The notes beneath the pieces are model-generated. The model did no database searches. It saw only the letters and a list, made by a program, of their open reading frames with translations, and was not told where the DNA came from. A stretch of 64,000 nt of DNA from Chloroflexota bacterium (lineage in GTDB: Bacteria; Chloroflexota; Anaerolineae; UBA4142). Below, piece after piece: positions 7,276 to 22,296 of this stretch (position 1 is its first letter; every line of letters begins with the position of its first letter). Both the position numbers and the translations under genes were made by a program. The stretch lies in NCBI GenBank assembly GCA_016219275.1, contig JACRBM010000013.1, positions 1-64,000 on the forward strand, written 5' to 3'.

Positions 7276-9198
7276 ATGAAACGATTCAATTTTACGTTCA
7301 CGCTGATGGCGCGTGTCATCCTGCTCGTTTCGATTGGCTTGCTCTTGATGTTCGGCGGATTTGCGTTTCTGAGTTTGGAAGCCGTGCGCGAAAGTACTGA
7401 TCGCGCGTTGCAAGAACGGATGCTTCTCGCGCAGATCACCGCCAGCCGCGTGGACGATTTGCTGCAACAAAAAATCACCTCGCTCCAAACCGTGCGGGAT
7501 GAATCCCCGTTCGACCCCAATCGCGACAATCCAGAAACGCTCGCGCCAATTCTCCATACCTTCGCGCAACACCTCGGCGATTTCGTACAGTACGTCGCGG
7601 TAACCGATCGCGAAGGGAATGTGATTCTATCCGAACCGTTGATGCCGGAACTGGTCGGCGCGAATGTGGCTTCGAATCGCTACGCCCAAAAAGTGCTCAA
7701 GACCGGTCAGCCGGTCGTGTCCGGTTATTTCGCGCCGGAAAAGGTAGAATCCACCGCGGCGATTTTGGTTTCCACTTCAAAAAACAATGGCACAACGAAT
7801 GGCGTCATCATCGCCGCGGTCAATCTCAAGCATCCCAGCATCAGTCATCTCCTCGGACCGTTAGGGCTGGGCAAACAGGGCTACGCCGAGATCGTAGATG
7901 AAGAAGGTTTTCCGCTCGCCAGCACATCGGAGGAACAATCGTGGCAGAACTGCCGCTATGGTGATCGCTTTGCCAGTTTGATTCGTGATCGCGGCACGGT
8001 GGTCGGGCAATGCCACGATTGTCACACCACATCGGCAACTCAGAAAAGACAAAACGGCGTGATGGCGTTTGCCGCGCTCACCACCGCGCCGTGGGGTATC
8101 GTCGTCCAACAAGATGAACGCGAGGCGTTCGCGTACACCAAAGAGTTGGAGCATAATCTGTCCTTGTTCGGCGGCGTCGCGTTTTTCATCACCCTCATCG
8201 TCGCGTGGCTCTTGACGCGCAGCGTGGTCAAGCCGGTCCAAACGTTGATCGCCGCCTCGCAACACATCGCGGCGGATGACTTGGCGCGACCGATTCCGCG
8301 CGTCGGCGGCGGCGAGGTGAGCATCCTGGGAGCGTCGCTGGACACTATGCGCGAGCGGCTGAAAAAATCCCTGGACGAGATCCAGGGATGGAATTCGGAA
8401 CTCGAACAACGCGTGGAATCGCGCACGCAAGAGTTGGAACAAGCCGAGCAAAGTCGCCGCGAGTTGTTACGCAAACTGGTCGTCGCGCAAGAAGAAGAGC
8501 GCCGCGGGTTGGCGCGCGAACTGCATGACGAAACGAGCCAGGCGTTGACCGCGCTCGTCGTCGGATTGGAGACCGCCACGACCGCGCCGGCGGAGTCGGT
8601 GGACGTGATGAAAGCGCGGCTGAATCCGATCAAGGCGATGGCGACCGCGATGCTGCGCGAAATTCAGCGCATCATCCACGACTTGCGCCCCGCGATCCTG
8701 GACGACCTGGGATTGGTGCAAGCGATAGATTGGTACGCGGAAACGCGCCTCAAAGTGCATGGCATTCAGGTCGGCTTTGAGACCGCGGGCGTCGAAAAAC
8801 GCTTGCCGTCCGAAGTCGAGACCGTCGTCTTTCGACTCGCGCAAGAAGCCATCAACAATATCGTGCGCCACGCTGGCGCAGAAGCGGTTAGCATCAGTCT
8901 GGAATTTGCGGACGATGCCGTTACGCTCGAAGTGGAAGACGACGGTTGTGGTTTCGATCCGGCAACCGCGCTATCCCCCGGAAAAGGGAATGCCACCTTT
9001 GGTCTCCTGGGAATGAAAGAACGCGCCGCTCTCTTTGGCGGAATCGTTAGCATCGAATCCAAGATTGAAGAGGGCACGAAAGTGACCGCCAAGATTCCGC
9101 TGAAAGGAACGAATGGGAATGGCAAAGATCCGAGTGTTGTTGGTGGACGATCACGCGATGTTGCGAGAAGGACTGAAGGCACTGCTCAGTCTGTGTGA
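7276..9198 (+). CDS. NarX-type sensor histidine kinase with a c-type heme motif in its sensor domain
   Basis: A 640-residue kinase. A first membrane helix (about 8-30) precedes a long extracytoplasmic domain (about 40-290) that resembles a double-Cache sensor. A second helix (296-318), HAMP, a coiled coil, a HisKA_3 H-box (ELHDETSQ, His417) and a HATPase with the N-box QEAINNIVRH follow. The sensor domain contains CHDCH at residues 246-250, a covalent heme c motif. Proximity to the membrane return suggests the domain reports redox state or a gas ligand. ATG 7276 has AAAGGA upstream, and earlier ATGs lack support. Its end overlaps the response regulator start by about 86 bases, so the pair is coupled. 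It probably controls the downstream reductive dehalogenase cluster (inference). Confidence 0.88.
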   Translation: MKRFNFTFTLMARVILLVSIGLLLMFGGFAFLSLEAVRESTDRALQERMLLAQITASRVDDLLQQKITSLQTVRDESPFDPNRDNPETLAPILHTFAQHLGDFVQYVAVTDREGNVILSEPLMPELVGANVASNRYAQKVLKTGQPVVSGYFAPEKVESTAAILVSTSKNNGTTNGVIIAAVNLKHPSISHLLGPLGLGKQGYAEIVDEEGFPLASTSEEQSWQNCRYGDRFASLIRDRGTVVGQCHDCHTTSATQKRQNGVMAFAALTTAPWGIVVQQDEREAFAYTKELEHNLSLFGGVAFFITLIVAWLLTRSVVKPVQTLIAASQHIAADDLARPIPRVGGGEVSILGASLDTMRERLKKSLDEIQGWNSELEQRVESRTQELEQAEQSRRELLRKLVVAQEEERRGLARELHDETSQALTALVVGLETATTAPAESVDVMKARLNPIKAMATAMLREIQRIIHDLRPAILDDLGLVQAIDWYAETRLKVHGIQVGFETAGVEKRLPSEVETVVFRLAQEAINNIVRHAGAEAVSISLEFADDAVTLEVEDDGCGFDPATALSPGKGNATFGLLGMKERAALFGGIVSIESKIEEGTKVTAKIPLKGTNGNGKDPSVVGGRSRDVARRTEGTAQSV

Positions 9199-9775
9199 AG
9201 ATGTTCAGGTGGTCGCCGAAGCATCCGACGGACGCCAGGCGCTCACGGCGGTGCGCGAACATTTACCCGATGTGGTGATCATGGATATGGCAATGCCGGG
9301 TATGGACGGCTTGGAAGCGACACGGCGCATCATCAGGGATCGTCCGGAAACCAAGATTCTCGTGTTGAGCCAACACGATAACGAGCGGTACGTGTTGCCA
9401 ATTCTCCAAGCCGGCGCGATGGGTTATGTGCTCAAGCGTTCGTTCGCCGGTGAGTTGGTCACCGCGATTCGGACGGTTTACCGGGGCGAGTCGTTCGTGC
9501 CGCCTTCCATTACCAAGATGTTGTTGGACAATTATCGCCAACACGCCGACAACGGTTCGGAAACGAGCGACGACGTACTGACCGAGCGAGAGAAGGAAGT
9601 CCTCAAACTCGTCGCCGAGGGACGCTCTAGTCAGGACATTGCCGAACTACTTGGTCTGAGCAAAAAAACCGTCATGTGCCACCGCGCGAATATCATGACC
9701 AAGCTAGGCATTCACAATCGCGCCAGTCTGGTCAAGTACGCCATCAGTCGCGGATTGATCGAGTTGGACGCGTGA
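9113..9775 (+). CDS. LuxR/NarL-family response regulator
   Basis: The receiver domain has the acidic pair in LLVDDHAML, the phospho-acceptor Asp58 in VIMDMAMPG and the conserved Lys in GYVLKRSF. A linker leads to a C-terminal LuxR helix-turn-helix (TEREKEVLKLVAEGRSSQ, then SKKTVMCHRANIM). The gene begins inside the end of the kinase gene; an alternative ATG at 9119 is equally possible because AAAGGA at 9103-9108 could serve either. It is the obvious partner of the upstream kinase. The natural candidate targets are the respiratory genes that follow on the same strand. Confidence 0.92.
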   Translation: MGMAKIRVLLVDDHAMLREGLKALLSLCEDVQVVAEASDGRQALTAVREHLPDVVIMDMAMPGMDGLEATRRIIRDRPETKILVLSQHDNERYVLPILQAGAMGYVLKRSFAGELVTAIRTVYRGESFVPPSITKMLLDNYRQHADNGSETSDDVLTEREKEVLKLVAEGRSSQDIAELLGLSKKTVMCHRANIMTKLGIHNRASLVKYAISRGLIELDA

Positions 9776-9806: not shown

Positions 9807-9930
9807 CATCCACCCCGCGCTACCGACCTCGCACGCAGGGAAAATCTAGGTACTGCCATCTCGAAAACTAGATACTTGTGCCGATTGATGCCACCGCCAG
9901 ATTGAGTTAAATTAACGGCAGGGAACTTAC

Positions 9931-10344
9931 GTGGCGAAATTGTTGCTGATTGAGCACAACAAGTCGTTAACCGCTTTGATCCAGCACGTATTGCGCGCAG
10001 ATCAAGGGTTGCAGTTAGTCGGGTGCGCGTCGAATGTTCACCAAGCGTTACAACTCCTCGCGACAACAACTCCGGACTTGATCCTGATAGATGCGCCGCT
10101 CCCCGACATTGGTTTTGCCGAGGTGATTCTGCTCGCGCTGGAAAGAGCGCCGACGAGTAAAATCATTCTGCTAGCGGACGATTGGGGCACGCGCTACTTG
10201 CGCGCCGCCATACGCTACGGCGTCAGTGGTTGCGTCAGAAAAGACCGGCTCGCCACCGACCTGATCCCGGTTGCCAAACGACTGCTCCACATCTCACTCG
10301 CGGAACACCAATACGCTCCCTTCGTCCGCGCCAAAAATAATTGA
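9931..10344 (+). CDS. Stand-alone receiver-domain protein, atypical acidic pocket
   Basis: A 137-residue CheY-like fold with no output domain. The Asp54 acceptor lies in LILIDAPLP and the conserved Lys in GCVRKDRL. The usual double-acid motif is replaced by Glu8-His9, and the Thr/Ser switch position in ILLADD is Ala. The start is GTG 9931 with a GGGAA box upstream. It sits between the two-component pair and the cytochrome gene. It could be a phosphate sink or an unphosphorylated protein-interaction module; the sequence does not decide. Confidence 0.7.
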   Translation: MAKLLLIEHNKSLTALIQHVLRADQGLQLVGCASNVHQALQLLATTTPDLILIDAPLPDIGFAEVILLALERAPTSKIILLADDWGTRYLRAAIRYGVSGCVRKDRLATDLIPVAKRLLHISLAEHQYAPFVRAKNN

Positions 10345-10403: not shown

Positions 10404-10934
10404 ATGTACCAACGAAATCTGCTGAATCCAATATCCTTGATGTTCGTTCTACTGTTCGTGTCATTTGGTGTGATGGCTTGTCAACCCCAGCCCGTTGCCA
10501 CACCACTCCCGCCGCTCCCCACCGTCCTCGCGACAGAAACCAAACCGGCGCCAGCCCCTACCGTCGCGCCTAAAGTTGAGGCGACCAAACCCGTTGCCAA
10601 GCCCGGCGCGATCAAGACAGTCGAAGATATTATGAAGACTGCGCCCGTTTCTCAGTTCATGGATGGCAAACACGTCACGAAAGGGCTGCAGTGCACCGCT
10701 TGCCACACAGCGATGCCACCCAAAGGCGCGCCTGAAACCAAGACATGCTTGAGTTGCCACAAGAACACGTACACCGCGATGGCGGAGGTCACGGCGAAGG
10801 TAAGCCCAAACCCCCACTCCTCGCACGAAGGTGAAATTCCGTGCGTGGACTGTCACAAAGGGCACGAGCCATTCGTGTATGGATGTGGCAAAGCCGGATG
10901 TCACTCCGAGTACTCATCAAACCGTTTCAAGTAA
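10404..10934 (+). CDS. Multiheme c-type cytochrome lipoprotein (tetraheme)
   Basis: A lipoprotein signal peptide ends at Cys26 (lipobox VMAC), followed by a Pro/Ala/Thr-rich linker to about residue 68. The C-terminal 100 residues carry CTACH (97-101), CLSCH (115-119), CVDCH (147-151) and CGKAGCH (161-167, a CX4CH variant), so up to four hemes. Small size and spacing resemble the tetraheme domain of cytochrome c3-type/flavocytochrome c proteins. It should be tethered outside the membrane and pass electrons; the next genes offer a copper protein and the reductive dehalogenase as partners. The GAGGAG box is unusually far (14 bases) from ATG 10404. Confidence 0.85.
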   Translation: MYQRNLLNPISLMFVLLFVSFGVMACQPQPVATPLPPLPTVLATETKPAPAPTVAPKVEATKPVAKPGAIKTVEDIMKTAPVSQFMDGKHVTKGLQCTACHTAMPPKGAPETKTCLSCHKNTYTAMAEVTAKVSPNPHSSHEGEIPCVDCHKGHEPFVYGCGKAGCHSEYSSNRFK

Positions 10935-11030: not shown

Positions 11031-11047
11031 AAAAACCAATGGAGGTT
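11031..11047 (+). promoter_or_regulatory. 17-base leader containing the ribosome binding site, copy 1
   Basis: The sequence AAAAACCAATGGAGGTT precedes the cupredoxin start and recurs exactly at 11517-11533 before rdhA. It includes GGAGG plus 10 more upstream bases, so conservation goes beyond a simple ribosome binding site. Confidence 0.55.
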
Positions 11048-11050
11048 ATG

Positions 11051-11437
11051 ATGCGGAAATTGATTCTACTCGTTGCAGTTCTAGTTGTGACGATGCTGGT
11101 CGTCGCATGCGGCAGTTCCAAGCCTGCCGTGGTCATGGATGAACCAGTCCCTGCCGGCGCTGACGGCGCGCAAATTGTCAATCTGTCTTTCAATACAACC
11201 GACATTTCCCCGGCGACCGTGACCGTCAAAGCTGGACAAAAGGTACTCTTTGTCGTCAAGAACACTGATCCAAAAGAGGATCACAACGTCGTCAGCCAAG
11301 ATTTAGGCATCAAGGAAATTCTCGTCGTTCCCGGACAAACCGCGCGCCGCTTGTGGACGCCGACCGCCAAGCCAGGTGAGTACCCGACCGGTTGCACGAT
11401 TCACCCCGACATTCGGATGAAGATCGTCGTTCAGTGA
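11051..11437 (+). CDS. Plastocyanin-like blue copper lipoprotein (cupredoxin)
   Basis: The 128-residue protein has a lipobox ending at Cys20 and a single cupredoxin domain. Type-1 copper ligands are visible: His in KEDHNVV and the Cys-His-Met set in TGCTIHPDIRM. ATG 11051 is preferred over nearby ATGs because GGAGG at 11041-11045 is correctly spaced. The leader AAAAACCAATGGAGGTT recurs before rdhA. A lipid-anchored one-electron carrier next to a reductive dehalogenase gene suggests a role in feeding it electrons, which is an inference. Confidence 0.88.
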   Translation: MRKLILLVAVLVVTMLVVACGSSKPAVVMDEPVPAGADGAQIVNLSFNTTDISPATVTVKAGQKVLFVVKNTDPKEDHNVVSQDLGIKEILVVPGQTARRLWTPTAKPGEYPTGCTIHPDIRMKIVVQ

Positions 11438-11516
11438 ACCAGACAGCAGGCGGAGACGGTTCTGGCAAGCCGATTCCCCTAATTGTGGATCATGCGACTT
11501 GCCAGCAAATCTCTTC

Positions 11517-11533
11517 AAAAACCAATGGAGGTT
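11517..11533 (+). promoter_or_regulatory. 17-base leader containing the ribosome binding site, copy 2
   Basis: An identical copy of the cupredoxin leader, here upstream of rdhA. GGAGG at 11527-11531 fixes the rdhA start at ATG 11537. Confidence 0.55.
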
Positions 11534-11536
11534 GAC

Positions 11537-12937
11537 ATGGCATCGAATTTAACCCGCCGAGAATTTTTGAAAGACCTCGGTTTGCTCGGCGCTGGTGTTA
11601 CGCTCGCCCCAGCCGCAATTAGCGGCGCCAACATTTTCGATTGGGACAACGAAAAGACGCCCCAGTTGCATCGCCCTAGCTGGGTGAACACATCCAGCTC
11701 ACCCACGATGGAAATTGACTGGGACAAGATGCAACGCTTTCGCGAGTGGCGCACGACGCGCGGCAGTTTCGCCGAATATGTGGGAAAGGAACGCGACGAG
11801 CGGTTGACCAAACTGCAAACCGAAAACTTGGATCGGTTCCTCAGGCAAAACAAACCGGGCTATACGCTCAAGGATCGCGCGCTCGGCGTGGCAACAGGAC
11901 AAGGCGCGGGCGCACAAGGGTTTCTGCCACCCAAAGACGCGACCACGCCAGACAAACTCGGCGTCGCAAAATGGACCGGCTCGCCGGAAGATGCGGCGAT
12001 CATGGTGACGGCGGCAATGCGCCACCTGGGCGCGGGCACCGTTGGCTTTGTGGAATTGGATTCGCGCACGACCGAGAAACTAATCTACGCCGAAGACCCG
12101 GACAAGAAAGTAATGGAAATCGCGGATGTGGCTCAACCGTCCGAGGACGACAAGAAACGCGTTATTCCGAAAAAAGCGCGCTGGGTGATTGTGTGGACCG
12201 TGCCGATGTCGCAAGAGACGATGAAAGCCGCGCCCACCGTGTTGTGCCAGCTCACCACCGGGTTGACCTACACGTTAAATCGCAGCATCCAATTGCGCTT
12301 GCAGTACTTTCTCGCCGGGTTGGGTTATCTGGGTCTGGGCGAAGCCAGCACGAACGCGCTCGGCATCTCGCCCGCGCTCGGCACGATGGCGGGCTTGGGT
12401 GAAATGTCGCGCTTGAATCGCTTGATCACACCCGAATGGGGTCCCATCACGCGCGTGTTCAAGATGGTCACCGACCTGCCGCTCGCGCCGACCAAACCGA
12501 TCAACGCCGGCATCATGCAGTTCTGCAAAGTCTGCAAAAAGTGCGCGGATTTTTGCCCGTCCAAGGCGTTGAGTTTCGACACCGAACCGACCTGGCAAAC
12601 GCGTGGCGGGTGGAACAACCCAGGACACAAGGCGTTCTTTGAAGATTCGACCAAGTGCCGCGCGTATTGGCGGCAGGTCGGCACGAACTGCGGTCTCTGC
12701 TTCACCGCGTGTCCGTTCGGCACCAAGAACCAAGCATTCTTCCACGAATTCCGCAACGCACTCGTCTCCGCGACGCCGGTCTTTGACAGCGCGCTCAAGG
12801 CGGTGGACGACTGGCTCAACCCAGGTCCCGCGAATCCGGAACTGGGCGATCCCTTCAAGAACCCGGAAGCGTGGTGGAAACGCACCGACTTGCCGATTTA
12901 CGGCATCAACACGTCTTCGGGTCTCAGTGACATCTAG
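11537..12937 (+). CDS. rdhA: Reductive dehalogenase catalytic subunit (RdhA), Tat-exported
   Basis: A 466-residue cobamide-dependent reductive dehalogenase. The Tat signal is LTRREFLKDLG at the N-terminus. The family's early motif EIDWDKMQRF, the central IVWTVPM segment and the NALGISPALG/LITPEWGP segment are all present. Two ferredoxin-type clusters follow: Cys330-333-336-340 (FCKVCKKCADFCP), then the remote Cys374 with Cys385-388-392 (CGLCFTACP). The family removes halogen from organohalides as a respiratory terminal step on the outer membrane face. ATG 11537 is set by GGAGG at 11527-11531. It is followed by the rdhB anchor gene after 12 bases. The substrate cannot be deduced from sequence. 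Confidence 0.95.
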   Translation: MASNLTRREFLKDLGLLGAGVTLAPAAISGANIFDWDNEKTPQLHRPSWVNTSSSPTMEIDWDKMQRFREWRTTRGSFAEYVGKERDERLTKLQTENLDRFLRQNKPGYTLKDRALGVATGQGAGAQGFLPPKDATTPDKLGVAKWTGSPEDAAIMVTAAMRHLGAGTVGFVELDSRTTEKLIYAEDPDKKVMEIADVAQPSEDDKKRVIPKKARWVIVWTVPMSQETMKAAPTVLCQLTTGLTYTLNRSIQLRLQYFLAGLGYLGLGEASTNALGISPALGTMAGLGEMSRLNRLITPEWGPITRVFKMVTDLPLAPTKPINAGIMQFCKVCKKCADFCPSKALSFDTEPTWQTRGGWNNPGHKAFFEDSTKCRAYWRQVGTNCGLCFTACPFGTKNQAFFHEFRNALVSATPVFDSALKAVDDWLNPGPANPELGDPFKNPEAWWKRTDLPIYGINTSSGLSDI

Positions 12938-13290: not shown

Positions 13291-13413
13291 GATTGTACCA
13301 CACTGGCACTTGATTTTGACTGTTCTTGGACTGCTCACAGACTTCCTCCTCTTATCCTACATCCGAGATATTGAGCGAGGTTGCTTGATAGGACACAACG
13401 AGGTGATGCCGCC

Positions 13414-15501
13414 ATGAAGATAAAGCACTGGATCATTGCAATCAGCATTCTGATTCTCATCCTTCTCCCCGCCCCTGCCGTCTCGGTCGCCAAATCAAAT
13501 TCCAATCGCGTTTTCAATATCCGCGCGCGTTCATTCGAATACACGCCTTCGGTCATTCACGTTCAGCAAGGCGATCGCGTCAAGTTGACGATGACGGCGG
13601 ATGACGTGACGCACGGATTGATTCTCGATTATTACGATGTCGAACTCGTCGCCGCGCCGCGCCCAGAAAAAGAATCGAGCGTCGAATTTATCGCGGATCG
13701 CGCGGGCAAGTTTCGTTTTCGCTGCACCCAGGTGTGCGGTCCGCTCCATCCCTTCATGGTCGGCGAACTCATCGTCGAACCGAACGCGCTGGGCACGCTC
13801 TCATTCCCGCTGCTCCTGATTGTCGCCGGTGGCACGCTCGGTTTGTTGTGGGTCGGCAAAAGTCGTCCCGGCATGTTGCCCGAACAACCGTGGCGCTTTG
13901 AACTGACCAAGTTTCGCATCGTTCGCTGGTTTGTGGATCAACGCTGGTTTCAGTACTCGTTGATGTTACCGAATTTATTTTTCTTCGTCATCATCATGCT
14001 GGCGGCGTTCTTTGGCACGCCGGTCGGCAACGCAAATTTCGCCATCATCTTTGTGTGGATCGTGTGGTGGGCGGCGCTCAAATTGATCCTGATTCCATTG
14101 GGCGGTCGCTCGTGGTGCTCAATGTGTCCGATCCCCGCGCCCGGCGAATGGATTGATCACCGCGCGTTCATCAAAAAAGGAAACGAGAAACCGCTCGCCA
14201 TCGCGCGCAAGAATTGGCCCAAGCAACTCCGCAATCTCTGGACGCAGAACGCGACGTTTCTCGCCGTCGCATTGTTCAGCGCGATCATCCTGACGCGACC
14301 CTGGGCAACCGGCGTCGTCTTGCTCGCGTTTTTTATCGGGGCGATCATTCTCTCGTACGTGTACGGTCGGCGCATCTTTTGCCGGTACGTTTGCCCGGTC
14401 AGCGGATTCATCGCGCTCTACTCGATGGCAGCGCCGGTCGAAGTCCGCGTCAAAGACCCGGACCTTTGCCGCAAGCACGTCGAAAAAGATTGCGTGTGCG
14501 GAAACGAAAGCGGTTATGGTTGTCCGTGGATGGAATATCCCGGCAATCTAAAACGCAATGCGTACTGCGGTCTGTGCACCGAGTGTCTCAAGACCTGCCC
14601 GAAAAATAATGTCGGCTTGAACTTGCGTCCCTTTGGCAGCGACTTGTTTATCGCGCAAGGACGCGGCGTGGACGAAGTGTACAACGTCTTTATCATGCTC
14701 ACCTGCGCGATGGTTTACTCGGCAGTTTATCTCGGCTCGTGGGGCGTGCTCAAGGACTGGGCGAACATCGCGACGATTCCTGGGTTCTTGTTCTACACCG
14801 TACTCTTCCTCGCGGCGAACCTCGTCGTCGTGCCGGGCTTGTTCTATCTCGCGGTCTGGCTCGGCAAAGCGTGGGCAGACCAGCGCCTCCCCTCGCGCCA
14901 AGAGTCGCTAGCGATTTTGGAACCGCTCGCCCCGGTGCCGGGTCAAATCGCGCAATTCGTGCGCGGATTCGCGCGTCGCAGCAGACCGGCAATCGCTTCG
15001 CGCGCGATGGCAATCCAAGCGATGGACGCGCCCGTCCAACGCCCTGTTGCACTGACCCAGGTCGCGGTGGCATCACCGACGGTCGCGACGAAACCCGTCC
15101 AACCCAAGCCGGCTCCTGCCAGCGCGTTGCCGCCGCTCAAACAACTCTTTGTGGATTACGGTTATGCGCTCGCGCCGCTCGGCTTGACCGGTTGGATCGC
15201 GTTCACAGTGTCGTTCGCGCTGATTGATATTTCGTACGCCATCCCGCTCTTGTCCGATCCGTTCGGCTGGGGGTGGAATTTGTTCGGCACGGCGGGCACA
15301 CCCTGGATTCGTTTTATTCCGGAATGGGTGCCGTACATCCAAACGCCGATATTGTTGATCGGGATGGCGCTGTCCATCGTGACCGCGTACAAGATCATCG
15401 AGCAACGCGTCGCGGATAAAAAGCTCGCGTTCCAGAGCGTTTTGCCGGTCGTCGTCTTTATGGTCGTCGTCATGTTCGTGTTCTTCCAACTGTACGTGTA
15501 A
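13414..15501 (+). CDS. CuA-type cupredoxin fused to a NapH/NosR-like membrane polyferredoxin
   Basis: A 695-residue fusion. A signal peptide precedes a cupredoxin domain with a full binuclear CuA set: His67 (VTHG), Cys104, Cys108, His112 and Met115 in CTQVCGPLHPFM. Multiple membrane helices follow with CSMCPIPAPGE and CRYVCPVSG motifs, then a ferredoxin region (CRKHVEKDCVC, CGLCTECLKTCP). A Pro/Ala linker and further C-terminal helices close the protein. The membrane part resembles NapH and the NosR/RdhC core. ATG 14 kb inside the cluster (13414) has GAGGTGAT upstream. A role carrying electrons from quinol to external acceptors fits, but this exact fusion is unfamiliar to me. Confidence 0.8.
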   Translation: MKIKHWIIAISILILILLPAPAVSVAKSNSNRVFNIRARSFEYTPSVIHVQQGDRVKLTMTADDVTHGLILDYYDVELVAAPRPEKESSVEFIADRAGKFRFRCTQVCGPLHPFMVGELIVEPNALGTLSFPLLLIVAGGTLGLLWVGKSRPGMLPEQPWRFELTKFRIVRWFVDQRWFQYSLMLPNLFFFVIIMLAAFFGTPVGNANFAIIFVWIVWWAALKLILIPLGGRSWCSMCPIPAPGEWIDHRAFIKKGNEKPLAIARKNWPKQLRNLWTQNATFLAVALFSAIILTRPWATGVVLLAFFIGAIILSYVYGRRIFCRYVCPVSGFIALYSMAAPVEVRVKDPDLCRKHVEKDCVCGNESGYGCPWMEYPGNLKRNAYCGLCTECLKTCPKNNVGLNLRPFGSDLFIAQGRGVDEVYNVFIMLTCAMVYSAVYLGSWGVLKDWANIATIPGFLFYTVLFLAANLVVVPGLFYLAVWLGKAWADQRLPSRQESLAILEPLAPVPGQIAQFVRGFARRSRPAIASRAMAIQAMDAPVQRPVALTQVAVASPTVATKPVQPKPAPASALPPLKQLFVDYGYALAPLGLTGWIAFTVSFALIDISYAIPLLSDPFGWGWNLFGTAGTPWIRFIPEWVPYIQTPILLIGMALSIVTAYKIIEQRVADKKLAFQSVLPVVVFMVVVMFVFFQLYV

Positions 15502-15509
15502 CATCTGTT

Positions 15510-15590
15510 CAGCCACACGCTTCGCGTCACGCAGAACCACACGAAAATATTCTGCGTGATTCTGTGCGGTTCTGTGGCGAATAATAGTGC
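15510..15590. repeat. Inverted repeat of 10-base units (TTCTGTGCGG type)
   Basis: Left units CCACACGC and CACGCAGAACCACAC face right units TTCTGCGTGA, TTCTGTGCGG and TTCTGTGGCG. It occupies the gap between the CuA fusion and the copper chaperone genes and could fold into a long imperfect hairpin. Confidence 0.55.
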
Positions 15591-15606
15591 CAGCAAAGCA
15601 ATCACA

Positions 15607-16029
15607 ATGAAACAAATTTTGTTGATCCTGGGATTCATTTTGCTCGCGTTGGCGGCGTGTGCGCCGGGCAAATTCGCGGTGAGCGAACCCTGGGCGCGTC
15701 CCGCATTGGCGAACGGCACCGGCGCGGCGTACTTTGTCATCGAAAATCCGGCGGCACAGCCCGACGCGTTGATCAACGCGACAAGTGATGTCGCCGGGAT
15801 CGTCGAACTGCACAAGACGGTGATGGCGCAAGGCGACGTGATGCAAATGATGAAAATGGAACGCATCGTCATTCCCGCCAATAGCAAAACCGAATTCAAG
15901 CCCGGCGGTTCGCACATCATGCTCATCAACCTCAAACGGGAGCTCAAGACCGGCGATACCTTTGCGCTCACACTTCGATTTGAAAACGCGGGCGAAGTAG
16001 TTTTGCAAGTCAAGGTACAAGAAAGATAG
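15607..16029 (+). CDS. PCu(A)C copper chaperone lipoprotein
   Basis: A 140-residue lipoprotein (lipobox LAAC near residue 18). The domain opens with the family-typical VSEPWARPA, contains GAAYFVIEN, and has the copper-binding set ELHKTVMAQGDVMQMMKME plus a C-terminal GGSHIMLINL, giving the His/Met ligands of H(M)X10MX21HXM. PCuAC proteins deliver Cu(I) to CuA sites outside the membrane. The two CuA-like proteins encoded nearby (13414 and 19342) are the obvious clients. ATG 15607 begins the signal peptide. Confidence 0.9.
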   Translation: MKQILLILGFILLALAACAPGKFAVSEPWARPALANGTGAAYFVIENPAAQPDALINATSDVAGIVELHKTVMAQGDVMQMMKMERIVIPANSKTEFKPGGSHIMLINLKRELKTGDTFALTLRFENAGEVVLQVKVQER

Positions 16030-16040
16030 TGTATTGCCGA

Positions 16041-16115
16041 ACCCCACCCAGCCCTCCCCTTACCAAGGGGAGGGTAGGGAGGGGTGATTGCTTCGTCGCT
16101 GCGCTCCTCCAATAA
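16041..16115. repeat. MITE-like fragment with CCCTCCCC core
   Basis: A GC palindrome (CCCTCCCCTTaccAAGGGGAGGG) followed by GATTGCTTCGTCGCTGCGCTCCTCCAATAAC, which is the inverted relative of the left end of the element at 18061-18204. It looks like one half of that element. It lies in the 104-base gap before the ABC permease gene. Confidence 0.65.
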
Positions 16116-16133
16116 CATCAAGTCCGTGAACAA

Positions 16134-17339
16134 ATGAAACGATTGAGTCTCCCGTATCTCGTCATCCAAAATATCAAACGCCGACCGTATCGCACCGCCG
16201 CCATTGTTTTGTCGGTCGCCATCGCGATTGGCACGCTCTTTGCGATCACGCTGACGATGCGCGGCGTGCAGAACAGTTTGCAAGTTGGCTTGGCGCGCCT
16301 GGGCGCTGATCTGATCGTCGTGCCGCGCGGGCAACACGTCTCCGCGCAAGAAGCGTTCGTCGTTGGGCAACCCACGACGTTTTACATGAACCAAAGCGTA
16401 CAAGACCAGGTTGCCAAACTGCCAGGCGTGGAACGCGTCTCGTCCCAGGTTTTCGTCAAGACGTTGACGAACGCGAGTTGTTGCGTCGGCGAATTTTTTC
16501 TCGTCAGTTTCGACCCGCGCACTGATTTTACGATCTATCCGTGGCTCACGTCGCATCTCGAAGGACACACTCTGCGTTCCGACGAAATTCTCGTGGGCGA
16601 CCGCATCCTGTTGTTTCCCGGTGAGACCGCGCTCTTTTACGGCTCTGCTTTCAAAATCGTCGCCGTGTTGGAAGCAACCGGGATGGGCTTGGATCGCACT
16701 GTTTTCGTTCCGCTCGACGGCTTGCGCGAGATGATCGCGGCGTCACCCGAACGCGCCGAGCAAGCATTAACCATCGCGCCGAATCAAATCTCGACTGTCT
16801 TGGTGCGCGTGGAGCCGGGAACGGATCAGAACAACGTCGCCGAACTGATCGAAAGTAAAATTCCAGATGTCCAAGCGATCACCACATCGCGAATGACCTT
16901 CGCCGTCAATCAACAATTTTCCGGTTTACTCCAAATCATCTTCGTCGTCACCGCCAGTTTGTGGATCATGGCGCTCATCGTCATCGCGTTGATTTTCACT
17001 CTTAGCGTCAACGAACGCCAACGCGAACTGGGTCTCTTGCGCGCGATGGGCGCGCACAAGCGCTTCGTGCTTCGCCTCATCATCGGCGAAGCGATGCTAC
17101 TGACCGGACTCGGCGGAGTCATCGGATTGTGTGTGAGCGGCGCGCTCTTGTTAAGTTATCAAGGATTGCTCGAACAGCGTTTGCATATTCCATTTTTGCT
17201 TCCTTCCTGGTTCGATGCAACGATGTTGATTAGCGGATTGCTGGGGTTAGCCATCGTGTCGGGCGCAATCGCGTCGTTCCAGCCGGCGTTTCGCATCAGT
17301 CGCTTGGAGCCGTATGAAGCAGTTCGCCAGGGCAGTTAA
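16134..17339 (+). CDS. MacB/FtsX-type ABC transporter permease
   Basis: A 401-residue permease with an N-terminal membrane helix (TAAIVLSVAIAIGTLFAITL), a large extracytoplasmic MacB_PCD-like domain (about 45-255) and three C-terminal helices. The FtsX signature region contains NERQRELGLLRAMGAHK. It abuts the ATPase gene with no gap (TAA then GTG). Such pairs export lipoproteins, peptides or small molecules or drive mechanotransmission. Its position after a copper chaperone suggests a role in assembling the exported electron carriers, which is only a contextual inference. Two adjacent Cys (NASCCVGE) lie in the external domain. Confidence 0.85.
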   Translation: MKRLSLPYLVIQNIKRRPYRTAAIVLSVAIAIGTLFAITLTMRGVQNSLQVGLARLGADLIVVPRGQHVSAQEAFVVGQPTTFYMNQSVQDQVAKLPGVERVSSQVFVKTLTNASCCVGEFFLVSFDPRTDFTIYPWLTSHLEGHTLRSDEILVGDRILLFPGETALFYGSAFKIVAVLEATGMGLDRTVFVPLDGLREMIAASPERAEQALTIAPNQISTVLVRVEPGTDQNNVAELIESKIPDVQAITTSRMTFAVNQQFSGLLQIIFVVTASLWIMALIVIALIFTLSVNERQRELGLLRAMGAHKRFVLRLIIGEAMLLTGLGGVIGLCVSGALLLSYQGLLEQRLHIPFLLPSWFDATMLISGLLGLAIVSGAIASFQPAFRISRLEPYEAVRQGS

Positions 17340-18029
17340 GTGAACAACGTGATTTCACAATCGCAAATCAGTCTACATTCCGTCAGCAAACGTTACCGGC
17401 AAGGTGGCGTCATCGTCACCGCGCTCGACAACGTGAATTTGGAAATCCAGTCCGGCGATTTTCTCGTCATTACGGGACGCTCAGGCGTTGGCAAAACAAC
17501 TCTGCTCAGTGTCATCGGCGGACTGACGTTGCCGACCCAGGGCACGATCATGTTCAACGGCACAAACCTGGGAACGCTCGACGATGTTGCCTTGTCCGCA
17601 TTCCGCGCGCGCAAGATGGGATTCGTTTTCCAATTCGCCAGTATGTTGCCCACATTGACCGCGCAAGAAAATATCAGCGTTCCACTTTTATTTGCGAATG
17701 GAACCGGTAAACCTCAACGCGTTCCAGAACTATTGCGCCTCGTCGGGTTGGAGGATCGCGCGCATCACTATGCGGCGCAATTATCCGGCGGGCAACAGCG
17801 GCGCGTCGCGATTGCGCGCGCGTTGATCAATCAGCCGGCGGTCTTGCTCGCCGATGAACCGACCGGCGATTTGGATACGGATACGGAAAAGGAAATTCTT
17901 GAGATGTTGCGCGCCTTCAACCAACAAGGGATGACGATCATTCTCGTCACGCACAACCCAGAGTTGAGCGCGTACGGTAATCGGACTGTCCGCATGGAAC
18001 GCGGTAAACTCATCGAGGCGTCTCAATAA
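17340..18029 (+). CDS. LolD/MacB-type ABC transporter ATP-binding protein
   Basis: A 229-residue ATPase with Walker A GRSGVGKTT, Q-loop FVFQFASMLPTLT, signature LSGGQQRRVAIARAL, Walker B AVLLADEPTGDLD and H-loop LVTHNPE. The GTG start at 17340 directly follows the permease stop, so the two are translated together as one transporter. Confidence 0.92.
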   Translation: MNNVISQSQISLHSVSKRYRQGGVIVTALDNVNLEIQSGDFLVITGRSGVGKTTLLSVIGGLTLPTQGTIMFNGTNLGTLDDVALSAFRARKMGFVFQFASMLPTLTAQENISVPLLFANGTGKPQRVPELLRLVGLEDRAHHYAAQLSGGQQRRVAIARALINQPAVLLADEPTGDLDTDTEKEILEMLRAFNQQGMTIILVTHNPELSAYGNRTVRMERGKLIEASQ

Positions 18030-18060
18030 TGTGTCGTTCAATTCTCGCAGCTGTTCTGAT

Positions 18061-18204
18061 GTCATTGCGAGGAACGAAGCGACGAAGCAATCTACCTCTC
18101 CCAACCCTCCCCTTGCTAAGGGGAGGGCTAGGGTGGGGTTGGGGATTGCTTCAGGCACACCTGCCCTGGCGGGCGGTGCCAGGGAAAACCGCCCTCGCAA
18201 TGAC
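18061..18204. mobile_element. MITE-like repeat with 12-base terminal inverted repeats
   Basis: The element is bounded by GTCATTGCGAGG (18061-18072) and CCTCGCAATGAC (18193-18204), a perfect 12-base inverted repeat. Inside are GAAGCGACGAAGCAATCT, a palindromic CCCTCCCCTTgctAAGGGGAGGG block and CTGCCCTGGCGGGCGG. There is no coding capacity for a transposase. The GCAATGAC end contains the ATG used by the PQQ-repeat lipoprotein. Confidence 0.8.
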
Positions 18205-19312
18205 AGACAGGGTAGAGCGGTTACTAATTCTCATCACGCTTGGTTCGCTCGCCTGGTTCAGCGCGGGTTGCGCGTCCCAGGGACCGGTGTTGTGGACGTT
18301 CAAAACCGGACGCGATATTGCCGCCAGTCCTGCGATTGGCGCAAACGGCGCGATTTACTTTGGCTCGCACGATAATTTCTTTTACGCGCTAAATCCGAAC
18401 GGCACACTCAAATGGAAATTCGCGACGGGCGCATGGGTTCATGGTTCGCCGGCAATCGGCGAGGACGGCACGGTTTACTTTTCATCTTACGACGATTATC
18501 TTTACGCGATGACCGGCGACGGTCAACTCAAGTGGCGCGTGCGCTTGGAACGACAAATCGAATCCTCGCCCGCGCTCGGCGCGGATGGCACGATCTACAT
18601 CGGTGACGACGACAAGCAACTCTACGCGATTACACCGGACGGCAAGATCAAGTGGACATTCAAGACCGGCGATCTCGTCGTCGGATGTCCGTCCATCGGC
18701 AAAGATGGCACGATTTATTTTGGCTCCGGCGATAACTGGGTCTATGCGCTCAATCCAGATGGCAGCGTGAAATGGAAATTGGAAACGCGCGGACCGATTT
18801 ACTCGTCGCCCGCGATTGGAGCGGATGGAGTGATGTACATCGGGTCGAGTGATCGCGGGGTGTACGCGATCAACCCGAACGGGCAAACGCGTTGGCGTTA
18901 CGAAACCGACGACAAGGTGTACGCGTCACCCGCGCTCGGCGCGGACGGCACGGTCTACGTCGGTTCGCTCGATGGGCATCTGTACGCGCTCAACCCTGAT
19001 GGGACTCTGCAGTGGAAAACAAATTTCCGCGAATGGATTATCTCGTCGCCCGCGGTCGGGGCGGATGGCACGATTTATTTCGGCGCGTACACGCGCGCGT
19101 TGTACGCGGTGAATCCGAAAGGTCAGATGGTTTGGAAGTACGAAGCGGAGCGTTACATTTTTTCTTCACCCACACTTGCCGCCGACGGCACGTTGTACGT
19201 TGGCGCGGATGATGGAAAACTGTACGCGCTCAAGACAACGAGTACGGGCTTGGCAGCATCATCGTGGTCCAAGTTTCGCGGTGATGCGCGGAATTCCGGA
19301 CGGCATTATTAA
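18200..19312 (+). CDS. PQQ-repeat (BamB-like beta-propeller) lipoprotein
   Basis: About 370 residues: a signal peptide with lipobox FSAGC (Cys24), then roughly nine repeats of about 37 residues of the form ADGTIYxG...LYAxxPDGxxKW with recurring SPAIG/SPALG links. This is the PQQ-like propeller pattern. ATG 18200 begins a clean lipoprotein signal. An in-frame ATG at 18029 overlaps the ATPase stop, but its extra 57 codons are almost entirely repeat DNA. The start codon lies within the terminal inverted repeat of the MITE-like element. The function is unknown; it could be a scaffold for exported redox proteins. Confidence 0.8.
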   Translation: MTDRVERLLILITLGSLAWFSAGCASQGPVLWTFKTGRDIAASPAIGANGAIYFGSHDNFFYALNPNGTLKWKFATGAWVHGSPAIGEDGTVYFSSYDDYLYAMTGDGQLKWRVRLERQIESSPALGADGTIYIGDDDKQLYAITPDGKIKWTFKTGDLVVGCPSIGKDGTIYFGSGDNWVYALNPDGSVKWKLETRGPIYSSPAIGADGVMYIGSSDRGVYAINPNGQTRWRYETDDKVYASPALGADGTVYVGSLDGHLYALNPDGTLQWKTNFREWIISSPAVGADGTIYFGAYTRALYAVNPKGQMVWKYEAERYIFSSPTLAADGTLYVGADDGKLYALKTTSTGLAASSWSKFRGDARNSGRHY

Positions 19313-19341
19313 ACCCAGGTCGTCCCAGCAGGAGAATCCTC

Positions 19342-19728
19342 ATGAAAAAAGCAGAACTCATTGGCGCGGTCTTAATCTGGCTCGTTCTTCTTGGAACTCC
19401 CGCCGGCGTCTTTGCGTATCAGGCATATCGCGCCAACACGGCGGAATGCCAAACGATCAACATGCGAACGTACGAGAACGGGAATCCCTATCCCAGCCCC
19501 ATCCGCGTGAAAAAAGGGGAACCGGCGTGCATCAAATTGACAAGCGAGGATGTGACGCACGGGTTTATCATCAGCGATTTCAACGTCAACGCGGGAGAGA
19601 TTCACGCCGGCAAATGGACGACGATTGTATTCACGCCGACGGAATCGGGCACCTTCAACTATGTCTGCACGATTGTGTGCAGTCCGATGCACTCGCGGGT
19701 GCGCGGGCAGATCATCGTGGAGGATTGA
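19342..19728 (+). CDS. CuA-like cupredoxin (cytochrome oxidase subunit II-type domain)
   Basis: A 128-residue protein with one N-terminal signal or anchor helix and a cupredoxin domain. The CuA loop is CTIVCSPMH (Cys109, Cys113, His117), with His73 in VTHGF. The Met ligand expected three residues after the loop His is Val120, so the site may be a modified CuA or mononuclear. The Shine-Dalgarno AGGAGA precedes ATG 19342. It is a probable membrane-anchored electron carrier in the same system as the CuA fusion at 13414. Confidence 0.82.
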   Translation: MKKAELIGAVLIWLVLLGTPAGVFAYQAYRANTAECQTINMRTYENGNPYPSPIRVKKGEPACIKLTSEDVTHGFIISDFNVNAGEIHAGKWTTIVFTPTESGTFNYVCTIVCSPMHSRVRGQIIVED

Positions 19729-19815
19729 CTTTGCCTTGCGAAAGTTTGAAGGCGCCAACCCGCGTGAATCGAATTTTGCAACCTTCGCAGGATGGATCGA
19801 GTATGTGGAGGACTA

Positions 19816-20055
19816 ATGCTCGCGACGTACGAATATCAATGTGATAAATGCAAATCGCCGTTTCAGGTGCGGCGTGATTGGAATGCCGCCGCGACCGGCG
19901 TTCGCTGTCCGGCGTGTCAGAGCGACGCGGCGCATCGCGTTTTCTCGGTGGTAACGACGCTCAGTCGCGGATCGGATGGGGCAATCCGAACGATTGGCGC
20001 GAGTCCGTGCAGTACTTGTACCGCATCGCAATGCCGCGGTTGCCAATCGAAATGA
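19816..20055 (+). CDS. FmdB-family zinc ribbon protein
   Basis: A 79-residue protein starting MLATYEYQCDKCKSPF, with the CXXC...CXXC ribbon (CDKC, CPAC) of the FmdB/CxxC_CxxC_SSSS family. It has an additional Cys-rich tail (CSTCTASQCRGC) that could bind a second metal. GGAG at 19807-19810 supports ATG 19816. The family is common beside metal-dependent redox operons; its molecular role is unsettled. Confidence 0.8.
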   Translation: MLATYEYQCDKCKSPFQVRRDWNAAATGVRCPACQSDAAHRVFSVVTTLSRGSDGAIRTIGASPCSTCTASQCRGCQSK

Positions 20056-20081
20056 GGCAATTGAAATTGTCGCGCGTGCAC

Positions 20082-20184
20082 GTAGGGGCGAAGCATTCGC
20101 AGAATGTTGATGCTTGGATAATCGTCCATCGAATGCGATGCGCCTGATTGATGAATCACCGTATGGCGAATGCTTCGCCCCTAC
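20082..20184. repeat. Inverted repeat with 19-base perfect arms (GTAGGGGCGAAGCATTCGC)
   Basis: The left arm at 20082-20100 and right arm at 20166-20184 are exact inverted copies, separated by 65 bases with partial internal symmetry. It fills the gap between the FmdB-like gene and the first NapG-like gene. Dispersed palindromes of this sort are typical non-autonomous repeats. Confidence 0.75.
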
Positions 20185-20208
20185 ACGCCCCTCTCACTGG
20201 AGATTGTG

Positions 20209-20805
20209 TTGTCAAATCATAATCAGCCGCTCAAAATGTCGCGGCGCGATTTTCTCAAATTAGCCGGCGGCGTTGCCGCATTCGGCTTTTCCGCGTTCGT
20301 CCTGGTTCCGCAACCGACCTTTCCGCGCGTGTTGCTTCCCGGCGCACTCCTACCCGCCGCGCGCTTTCAAGCCGCGTGTAATCGCTGCGGCAAATGCGCC
20401 GCCGTGTGTCCGCACGACGCGATTCGGCAAAGCGCGGATGGACTGCCGTACATTGATGGATTATCCGGTTGGTGCGATTTGTGTATGGATTGCGTCGAGG
20501 CGTGCCCGACCGGCGCGTTATTACCCGCCGATCCGCAACAGATCAAACTGGGTGTGGCAGAGATAGACCGCAACCGGTGTATCGCGTGGCTGACGGCTGG
20601 ATGTCGCCTCTGCTACGAAAAATGTACGAACCTCAAGCAAGCGATTACGATAGACCAAGATTTACGCACGTACGTTGACGAGTCGCGTTGCAATGGATGC
20701 GGCGCGTGCGTCAACGTTTGTCCCCAGCCCGACCGCTCAGGCGGAAACATCCGGGCGGGACGCGCCGTCGCCTTGAAAGTGAATCCGAATGATCCCCGAA
20801 CTTGA
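20209..20805 (+). CDS. NapG-like Tat-exported polyferredoxin, copy 1
   Basis: A 198-residue protein with a Tat signal (SRRDFLKLAGG) and four ferredoxin-type cysteine clusters: CNRCGKCAAVCP, CDLCMDCVEACP, the modified CRLCYEKC and CNGCGACVNVCP. It matches NapG/MauM. The first ATG (20236) sits right at the Tat motif, so the better start is probably TTG 20209, six bases after GGAG at 20199-20202. It overlaps the NapH-like gene by 17 bases. Probable role: an extracytoplasmic partner passing electrons from the NapH-like quinol oxidase to a terminal acceptor. Confidence 0.82.
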   Translation: MSNHNQPLKMSRRDFLKLAGGVAAFGFSAFVLVPQPTFPRVLLPGALLPAARFQAACNRCGKCAAVCPHDAIRQSADGLPYIDGLSGWCDLCMDCVEACPTGALLPADPQQIKLGVAEIDRNRCIAWLTAGCRLCYEKCTNLKQAITIDQDLRTYVDESRCNGCGACVNVCPQPDRSGGNIRAGRAVALKVNPNDPRT

Positions 20806-21601
20806 GCAACCGATTCAAGCCATCGCGCGTCCAGCAATCAAAAAACGCGCGCAACATGATACCTGGTCGAGATTTCGATTTGTCACAACCGTCAGCGCGA
20901 TCGTACTCATCGCGCTCGGCGCGGCGACGAATGTTAACATTGGCACGTTCTCGTCATTCAGTCTGGGTCCAGTCACGATTGCGTGTCCGCTCGGCGTCGC
21001 GCAAATAATGGCGGCGACGCAATCGTTCATCCCCGCGCTCGCACTCGCCGGACTTGCCGGTGTCTTGCTGACGATTTTGTTCGGGCGCGCGTTTTGCGGT
21101 TGGCTGTGTCCGGGACGGTGGCTGTTCAATCACTCGCCGCGCATGGCGAAACAAGGTTGGAAACATCGCGCGTGGGTGCAGAGCGGCGTCATCACCGGCG
21201 TGGTCGGTTTGGCATGGGTATTTCACAACCCGGTTTTTTGCATCATCTGCCCGGTCGGTTCGATTTGTCGCGGCGCGGTGGCGCTCGGTGGAGGTGGCAG
21301 TATCTTGCCCGCGCTGGGTTGGCTCAGCGCGCTACTCAGCGTCGAGTGGTTCAGCGGACGTTCGTGGTGTCGCGACCTGTGCCCGGTCGGCGCGACACTC
21401 AGTCGCATCAGCGCGCTGAATCCGTTCGTCAAAGTAAAAGCGGATTCGGAGAAATGTCGTCCGTGCTTGGCGTGTATGAAGAAATGCCCGGAGAGCGTCA
21501 ACCTCAGTCAAGCAACCGAGATGTCCACCTGCACAAAATGTTTCGCGTGCCAAGGCGTGTGCCCGCGCGATGCGGTTGAGATCAAACTCATCAACAAGTG
21601 A
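20789..21601 (+). CDS. NapH-like membrane quinol-oxidising polyferredoxin, copy 1
   Basis: A 270-residue protein with about four or five membrane helices. It has paired membrane-proximal motifs FCGWLCPGRW and FCIICPVGSICRG, a third WCRDLCPVGA and a C-terminal double [4Fe-4S] region (CRPCLACMKKCP and CTKCFACQGVCP). This is the NapH architecture. It overlaps the NapG-like gene, so the two are co-expressed. In nitrate-reducing bacteria NapGH transfers electrons from menaquinol or ubiquinol to the periplasm; here the acceptor is probably the heme and copper carriers. Confidence 0.87.
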   Translation: MIPELEQPIQAIARPAIKKRAQHDTWSRFRFVTTVSAIVLIALGAATNVNIGTFSSFSLGPVTIACPLGVAQIMAATQSFIPALALAGLAGVLLTILFGRAFCGWLCPGRWLFNHSPRMAKQGWKHRAWVQSGVITGVVGLAWVFHNPVFCIICPVGSICRGAVALGGGGSILPALGWLSALLSVEWFSGRSWCRDLCPVGATLSRISALNPFVKVKADSEKCRPCLACMKKCPESVNLSQATEMSTCTKCFACQGVCPRDAVEIKLINK

Positions 21602-21675
21602 ATAATTCACTGCGAAAATCACCCGGTAGAGTGGTGACACATAATTGGTTGCCGCGTATAATTCGCACAGAACAA

Positions 21676-21712
21676 GGTGCGGGCAATTCCGCCCGCATCT
21701 CTTTTATTTTGT
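21676..21712 (+). terminator. Intrinsic terminator between the two NapGH pairs
   Basis: The stem GGTGCGGGC (21676-21684) / GCCCGCATC (21691-21699), with one G-T pair, is followed by TCTTTTATTTTG. It would partly isolate the second NapGH pair from the first. Confidence 0.7.
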
Positions 21713-21729
21713 AAAGGTCCAGTCGTTGA

Positions 21730-22296
21730 ATGAACTCTAACGGATTTACCCGGCGTGAATTTCTCACGCTCGTCGGCGGCGCAACCGCGTTGAGTATTTC
21801 AGGTTTTATCCTGAACACCCAAACCGCGTCCGCCGATGTCCGACCACCCGGCGCACTCGCGCCCTACGAACTTTTTCGCGCGGCATGTGTGCGGTGCGGC
21901 AAATGTGTTTCCGCGTGTCCGCATCAATCCATTCGCCAAAACAGCGAACGGCTACCGTATATTGATGGCATAACCGGTTGGTGCGTTTTCTGTATGGACT
22001 GTGGCGTCGCGTGTCCGACCGGCGCGTTGCATCCGGTGGACCCGCATACGAGCAAACTAGGAACTGCCGTCATTGATCGGAATCGCTGTCTACCCTGGAC
22101 TCTATCCGAGTGCCATCAATGTTACGACAAGTGTGTTGGATTGCAGCAAGCGATCAAATTGGATTCGCAAAAACGTCCGTCAGTGGATGCGGCGCGTTGC
22201 AATGGCTGCGGCGCATGCGTGACCGCGTGTCCGCAATCGAATCGTGAAGGCAGGGGCAAGGAATTTGGAAAAGCAATTACACTCATCGCCGGTTGA
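21730..22296 (+). CDS. NapG-like Tat-exported polyferredoxin, copy 2
   Basis: A 188-residue paralogue of the protein at 20209. It has a Tat motif FTRREFLTLVGG, then clusters CVRCGKCVSACP, CVFCMDCGVACP, CHQCYDKC and CNGCGACVTACP in the same order and spacing. ATG 21730 gives a normal Tat signal. Its end overlaps the next gene by about 50 bases. Divergence from copy 1 is considerable, so the duplication is not recent, and the two pairs may serve different acceptors. Confidence 0.85.
   Translation: MNSNGFTRREFLTLVGGATALSISGFILNTQTASADVRPPGALAPYELFRAACVRCGKCVSACPHQSIRQNSERLPYIDGITGWCVFCMDCGVACPTGALHPVDPHTSKLGTAVIDRNRCLPWTLSECHQCYDKCVGLQQAIKLDSQKRPSVDAARCNGCGACVTACPQSNREGRGKEFGKAITLIAG

Follow-up and report, generated by a model that had tools for sequence, protein, structure and literature searches.

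We analysed a window of 64,000 nucleotides of Chloroflexota DNA (the whole stretch examined, from contig JACRBM010000013.1), in which a gene for a sensor histidine kinase, starting at the ATG at position 7276, is followed by genes for a NarL-type response regulator, a stand-alone receiver, a multiheme cytochrome, a cupredoxin and the reductive dehalogenase RdhA (Table 1). The codons TGC CAC GAT TGT CAC on the + strand encode residues 246–250 of the kinase as CHDCH, exactly where the original prediction had placed a heme c motif. Pfam searches of the kinase returned dCache_1 (54.2 bits, cut-off 45), HAMP, HisKA_3 and HATPase_c. The protein had also been called 'NarX-type', a description that suits its HisKA_3 kinase core but not its sensor, which is a different domain: the NarX profile (NF007896) matched the kinase core only, and NarX membership of the sensor was rejected on a score of 85.7 bits against a cut-off of 578.

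The neighbouring reductive dehalogenase was confirmed by TIGR02486 (259.9 bits against a cut-off of 160.35). All five close loci, which come from four genomes (L071 and L072 share one), have the gene order kinase, regulator, cytochrome, cupredoxin and RdhA, and four of them also have the stand-alone receiver. No RdhA match at E 1e-8 was found in the other 21 loci of the same comparison, some of which are short. Among 16 related genomes, all nine RdhA matches of at least 246 bits lay on contigs with this kinase type. It is possible that the membrane protein encoded downstream of RdhA serves as an unusual electron donor to RdhA in place of RdhB. Further 3' of the RdhA gene, positions 15556–22296 of the window hold genes for a copper chaperone PCuAC, a MacB-type ABC transporter, another cupredoxin and ferredoxins of the NapG/NapH-like kind, which together resemble a denitrification set placed around a dehalogenase.

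Table 1 Features of the kinase locus, with positions in the window.
Feature	Position	Strand	Evidence or conservation
Sensor histidine kinase, 640 aa: TM1, double Cache, TM2, HAMP, HisKA_3, HATPase_c	7276..9198	+	Pfam, AlphaFold model
Cys226-Arg227-Tyr228; Cys226 is the predicted other axial ligand	7951..7959	+	Covariation
CHDCH (C246, H247, C249, H250), predicted covalent heme c site; His250 is one predicted axial ligand	8011..8025	+	
NarL/LuxR-type response regulator (receiver + GerE)	9113..9775	+	Adjoins kinase in 5/5 close loci
Predicted operator: direct repeats AAATCTAGGTACT (9842-9854) and AAAACTAGATACT (9864-9876), 22 bp apart	9842..9876	+	6/6 loci
Sigma70-like promoter: TTGATG (9885), 17-bp spacer, TAAATT (9908)	9885..9913	+	Same spacer in 6/6 loci
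Stand-alone receiver domain protein	9931..10344	+	
Cytochrome c3-type multiheme protein	10404..10934	+	Cytochrom_c3_2
Cupredoxin	11036..11437	+	
Reductive dehalogenase RdhA with 4Fe-4S double-cluster domain	11483..12937	+	TIGR02486
Membrane protein: cupredoxin/COX2-like domain fused to NapH-like 4Fe-4S membrane part	13381..15501	+	

A check of the syntenic homologues for loss of the CXXCH found CHDCH kept in all five, at 61–73% identity and beside the same genes, and CxxCH was kept in many homologues of 25–40% identity. In the AlphaFold model of the kinase (mean pLDDT 85.8), two Cache modules lie between two long helices, which begin at residues 10 and 286; with the dCache_1 match and the conserved CHDCH, this two-module model bears out the proposal that the extracytoplasmic part is a double Cache, probably carrying heme c. 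The first half of the membrane-proximal module consists in the model of β1 (203–208), β2 (213–216) and a helix (229–237), and the second half of β3 (241–247), CHDCH (246–250), β4 (260–267) and β5 (273–280). The motif thus sits at the end of β3 and is inserted between β3 and β4, as in sCache_heme, with a less certain loop (pLDDT 57 over residues 251–260). This loop spans 20–27 residues in motif-bearing sensors and 12–23 in others, and its greater length in the former fits an inserted heme-binding piece, although the ranges overlap. A second model, of a relative 31% identical to the kinase (pLDDT 86.9), left the order of the elements unchanged.

Among the matches listed by Foldseek and VIA, the solved structures closest to the kinase model were dCache sensors (with 3lif, VIA gave Z 21.1 over 232 residues at rmsd 3.2), and 3b42, 3b47 and 5b82 were not among the best 50 listed by either. 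Searching solved structures by sequence with the sensor gave one weak match only, the methyl-accepting chemotaxis protein 7w0w (E 0.044). The two-module fold is common to the kinase and to dCache_1 sensors such as PctA and rpHK1S-Z16, which bind amino acids and other small molecules and in which we know of no covalent cofactor. That the motif is a remnant, and that the kinase senses a small molecule in its distal Cache pocket with heme playing little or no part, would suit this ordinary ligand-binding dCache fold and the loss of the motif in some relatives, but it fits poorly with conservation of the motif over several phyla and with a second ligand that, as described below, was replaced rather than lost; we consider this highly improbable.

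The sensor had also been likened to GSU0582 and GSU0935, whose domains are of the single-Cache PF11845/Tll0287 type, termed 'sCache_heme' (PMC12889525), whereas the kinase is a dCache protein. The window's sensor had no match to PF11845 up to E 1, and hhalign against sCache_heme aligned only 24 columns around CxxCH, at a probability of 7.8%. Membership of the GSU0582/GSU0935 group was rejected on these results together with the two-module dCache fold. PF11845 was found neither in the source genome nor in 14 control genomes, and the same profile found it in 11 of 301 Chloroflexota genomes; sCache_heme has been described as rare or absent in this phylum (PMC12889525). The likeness to sCache_heme (DUF3365/Tll0287-like) lies in an extracytoplasmic Cache fold, a CxxCH in the β3–β4 region and frequent fusion to signalling parts, and Tll0287 is also His/Cys-ligated (PMC12889525), as we predict for the kinase. 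From these sequence comparisons, an origin independent of sCache_heme is likely. In GSU0935 the second ligand is Met60, far ahead of Cys140 (PMC8396549), whereas that predicted for the kinase lies between β2 and β3. The same paper describes DcrA of Desulfovibrio, which has a c-type heme outside the membrane and is said to sense redox and oxygen; it differs from the kinase in being a chemoreceptor. PceS/PceP of Sulfurospirillum is likewise a two-component system in a reductive-dehalogenase gene region, but PceS is described with seven transmembrane helices and a periplasmic domain, and 'heme' is absent from the main text of that paper (PMC7755780).

For the wider family, we aligned 121 sensors (116 after removal of duplicates), leaving out rows under about 240 model positions, among them L073/L013 and L204–L206. 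The loci were at most the best 25–30 per search, picked by likeness to motif-bearing queries rather than sampled at random. Among the matches listed were 76 non-redundant CxxCH sensors from several phyla, and profile searches extended the family to Nitrospirota, to Anaeromyxobacter and further genomes from the same phylum, and to one Tectomicrobia record. As 'motif-bearing' meant C..CH at the aligned place, the conservation of His250 is partly a matter of definition. Elsewhere the motif is lost or absent, reading CHNCD in L020, CLGCT in L050 and L051 and CSFCA in the Acidobacteriota relative L094, and plain dCache relatives have none. The source genome encodes three further dCache kinases with a CxxCH motif, which adjoin molybdopterin oxidoreductase, NrfD/FeS or 13-heme cytochrome genes. 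A different HisKA_3 kinase of this genome (L005, contig C71) has a sensor with two CxxCH motifs (CVECH and CQQCH) and a weak, sub-threshold match to Mcp40H-20_sensor.

We found a candidate for the second heme ligand just ahead of the helix between β2 and β3, where most relatives read S-D-H and the kinase's RdhA-linked clade reads N-C-R-Y. Because only a short turn joins this helix to β3, its N terminus should lie beside the end of β3, going by the helix–turn–strand order of the model only. All 76 CxxCH sensors have a candidate ligand (His228 in 49, Cys228 in 17 and Cys226 in 10, including the kinase), and Cys226 occurs in none of the 49 that keep His228. The ten Cys226 sensors form two separate groups of five, the RdhA-linked clade and a Nitrospirota-side group with YCDY or QCNR. 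His228 is not exclusive to heme, as 25 of 40 sensors without CxxCH have it; the other 15 have neither His nor Cys (ligand-site Cys, 0 of 15). The tree needs three independent His-to-Cys changes, all on supported branches, and loss of His was paired with gain of Cys in each, although an independent-pairs test (p 0.25) cannot reach significance with only three pairs. His247 was present in 48 of 49 sensors with His228, 0 of 17 with Cys228 and 10 of 10 with Cys226, and L050 and L051 have lost both His250 and the His at position 228. We infer from these patterns that His250 and Cys226 are the ligands of a heme iron in the kinase. The L073/L013 homologue (L073, 10001–11803) keeps CHDCH but lacks about 37 residues in frame (about residues 200–236), a gap that removes β1 through the helix of the proximal module, and with it Cys226; this could be a misassembly or a dead copy. 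In L046, L049, L053 and L056, which have no CxxCH, a conserved [AG]EHP occupies the place of His228.

Taken together, the sequence features suggest that the kinase probably carries a covalently attached heme c outside the membrane. The source genome encodes the heme attachment set CcmE-CcmF-CcmC twice. Cytochrome assembly genes were found in 16 of 17 genomes with a motif-type sensor (including G004, whose copy reads CHNCD) and in 28 of 30 other genomes; their presence in motif-less genomes means that they do not discriminate between heme and Zn. A pair of Cys, a single His and a further position where His and Cys can replace each other would also be compatible with an extracytoplasmic site for Zn or another metal in place of heme, and four Nitrospirota-side sensors (L199, L201, L202 and L203) look like metal sites, with CxHG[YFH] replacing CxxCH and the His-rich sequence HHDH where the ligand would lie; perhaps theirs is a converted heme site, or the source of it. 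A metal site is nevertheless improbable for the kinase, given the exact CxxCH spacing in 76 sensors, the complete sets of cytochrome c maturation genes that the genome encodes and the tight linkage to multiheme cytochrome genes.

This linkage was strongest outside Chloroflexota. A 9- to 13-heme open reading frame (ORF) was present in 19 of 20 Nitrospirota- or Myxococcota-side sensor loci and in 2 of 20 control regions, which were arbitrarily placed stretches of the same genomes (p 6e-8, ignoring kinship). In the stretches fetched, all 12 loci of the Nitrospirota side had a 12- to 13-heme ORF and seven of the eight of the Myxococcota side a 9-heme ORF; several loci are ordered tetraheme cytochrome, FeS protein, NrfD, 13-heme cytochrome, kinase and regulator. 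In Chloroflexota the linkage was weaker, at 16 of 41 motif-bearing against 2 of 24 motif-less loci (p 0.009), and 10 of 33 against 2 of 24 without the RdhA clade and the seed loci (p 0.055; both Fisher tests, ignoring kinship). Redox seed genes had been taken from four of the counted loci, but the multiheme count does not use the seeds.

We also identified a candidate control region between the regulator and receiver genes, where an 11-base word scan revealed two direct repeats followed by a promoter. The TAG[AG]TA core of the first repeat begins 38–39 bp ahead of the −35 box in all six loci, and the position of the repeats just upstream of that box suggests an activator site. The complement of the repeat contains TACCTAG, which we take to resemble the NarL heptamer. 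The full operator–promoter architecture occurred eight times in 226 loci (1.78 Mb, both strands): once at the corresponding place in each of five related clusters, once as the window's own copy (L001), and in two additional copies upstream of NapG in L070 and L073. It was absent from unrelated loci among these 226 loci and 1.78 Mb. No palindromes shared among the loci were found upstream of the genes.

Redox or gas sensing is, on sequence grounds, the likeliest role of the kinase. One possibility is that the heme c is present and that the kinase senses NO or another gas to switch respiratory modules, like the signalling sCache_heme domains. A signalling-type sCache_heme protein binds NO tightly, and the membrane-anchored protein releases NO slowly and forms no stable oxy complex, whereas a stand-alone one is redox-like (PMC12889525); the kinase's cluster also encodes NapGH- and NosR-like proteins. 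The membrane-anchored protein, however, lacks an axial Cys and is predicted to be five-coordinate (PMC12889525), whereas all 76 sensors keep a His/Cys candidate, and the stand-alone protein with His/Cys ligation releases NO fast and was assigned a redox role (PMC12889525). We prefer redox over NO because the predicted His/Cys ligation is closer to that of the redox-like Tll0287 group than to the open form that senses NO, and regard a dedicated gas sensor as unlikely.

With a probability of about 0.6, we favour a kinase that senses redox (or NO) through a heme c with His/Cys ligation and turns on the dehalogenase module through its NarL-type regulator. Outside the membrane, the cytochrome c maturation system would attach a single heme to Cys246 and Cys249; the heme iron would be ligated by His250 on one side and Cys226 on the other, a His two positions later taking the place of this Cys in most relatives. 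The heme may then change its redox state, perhaps by exchanging electrons with extracytoplasmic cytochromes nearby, or bind NO, which would alter the ligation and move the proximal module against TM2–HAMP. This movement would set HisKA_3 autophosphorylation and the passage of phosphate to the adjacent regulator, which would bind the pair of direct repeats lying immediately ahead of the −35 box and activate the genes for the receiver, multiheme cytochrome, cupredoxin and RdhA.

A February 2026 preprint presents sCache_heme as the first Cache domain known to have a covalently bound cofactor (PMC12889525), and we found no description of a heme-c double Cache in the literature searched. More tentatively, and at somewhat under even odds, the sensors may form a second, independently evolved heme-c Cache class in the double-Cache family (Chloroflexota, Nitrospirota, Myxococcota and others) that reads the redox state of the cell's multiheme wiring outside the cytoplasm by exchanging electrons directly with the cytochromes encoded alongside; three changes of its second ligand from His to Cys would have tuned the set point, one of them accompanying the recruitment to reductive dehalogenation. 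The occurrence of relatives beside other electron-transfer genes in other phyla points to a class of redox or gas sensor that is widespread and has yet to be described. With such a family, covalent heme would be known in double Cache domains as well, probably with an origin of its own, and nature would supply a series of sensors with either His or Cys as ligand. For a reductive-dehalogenase cluster of uncultured Chloroflexota, the family would also provide a sensor, a regulator, an operator and a promoter that can be tested, and it would predict what switches on multiheme respiratory operons in other phyla.
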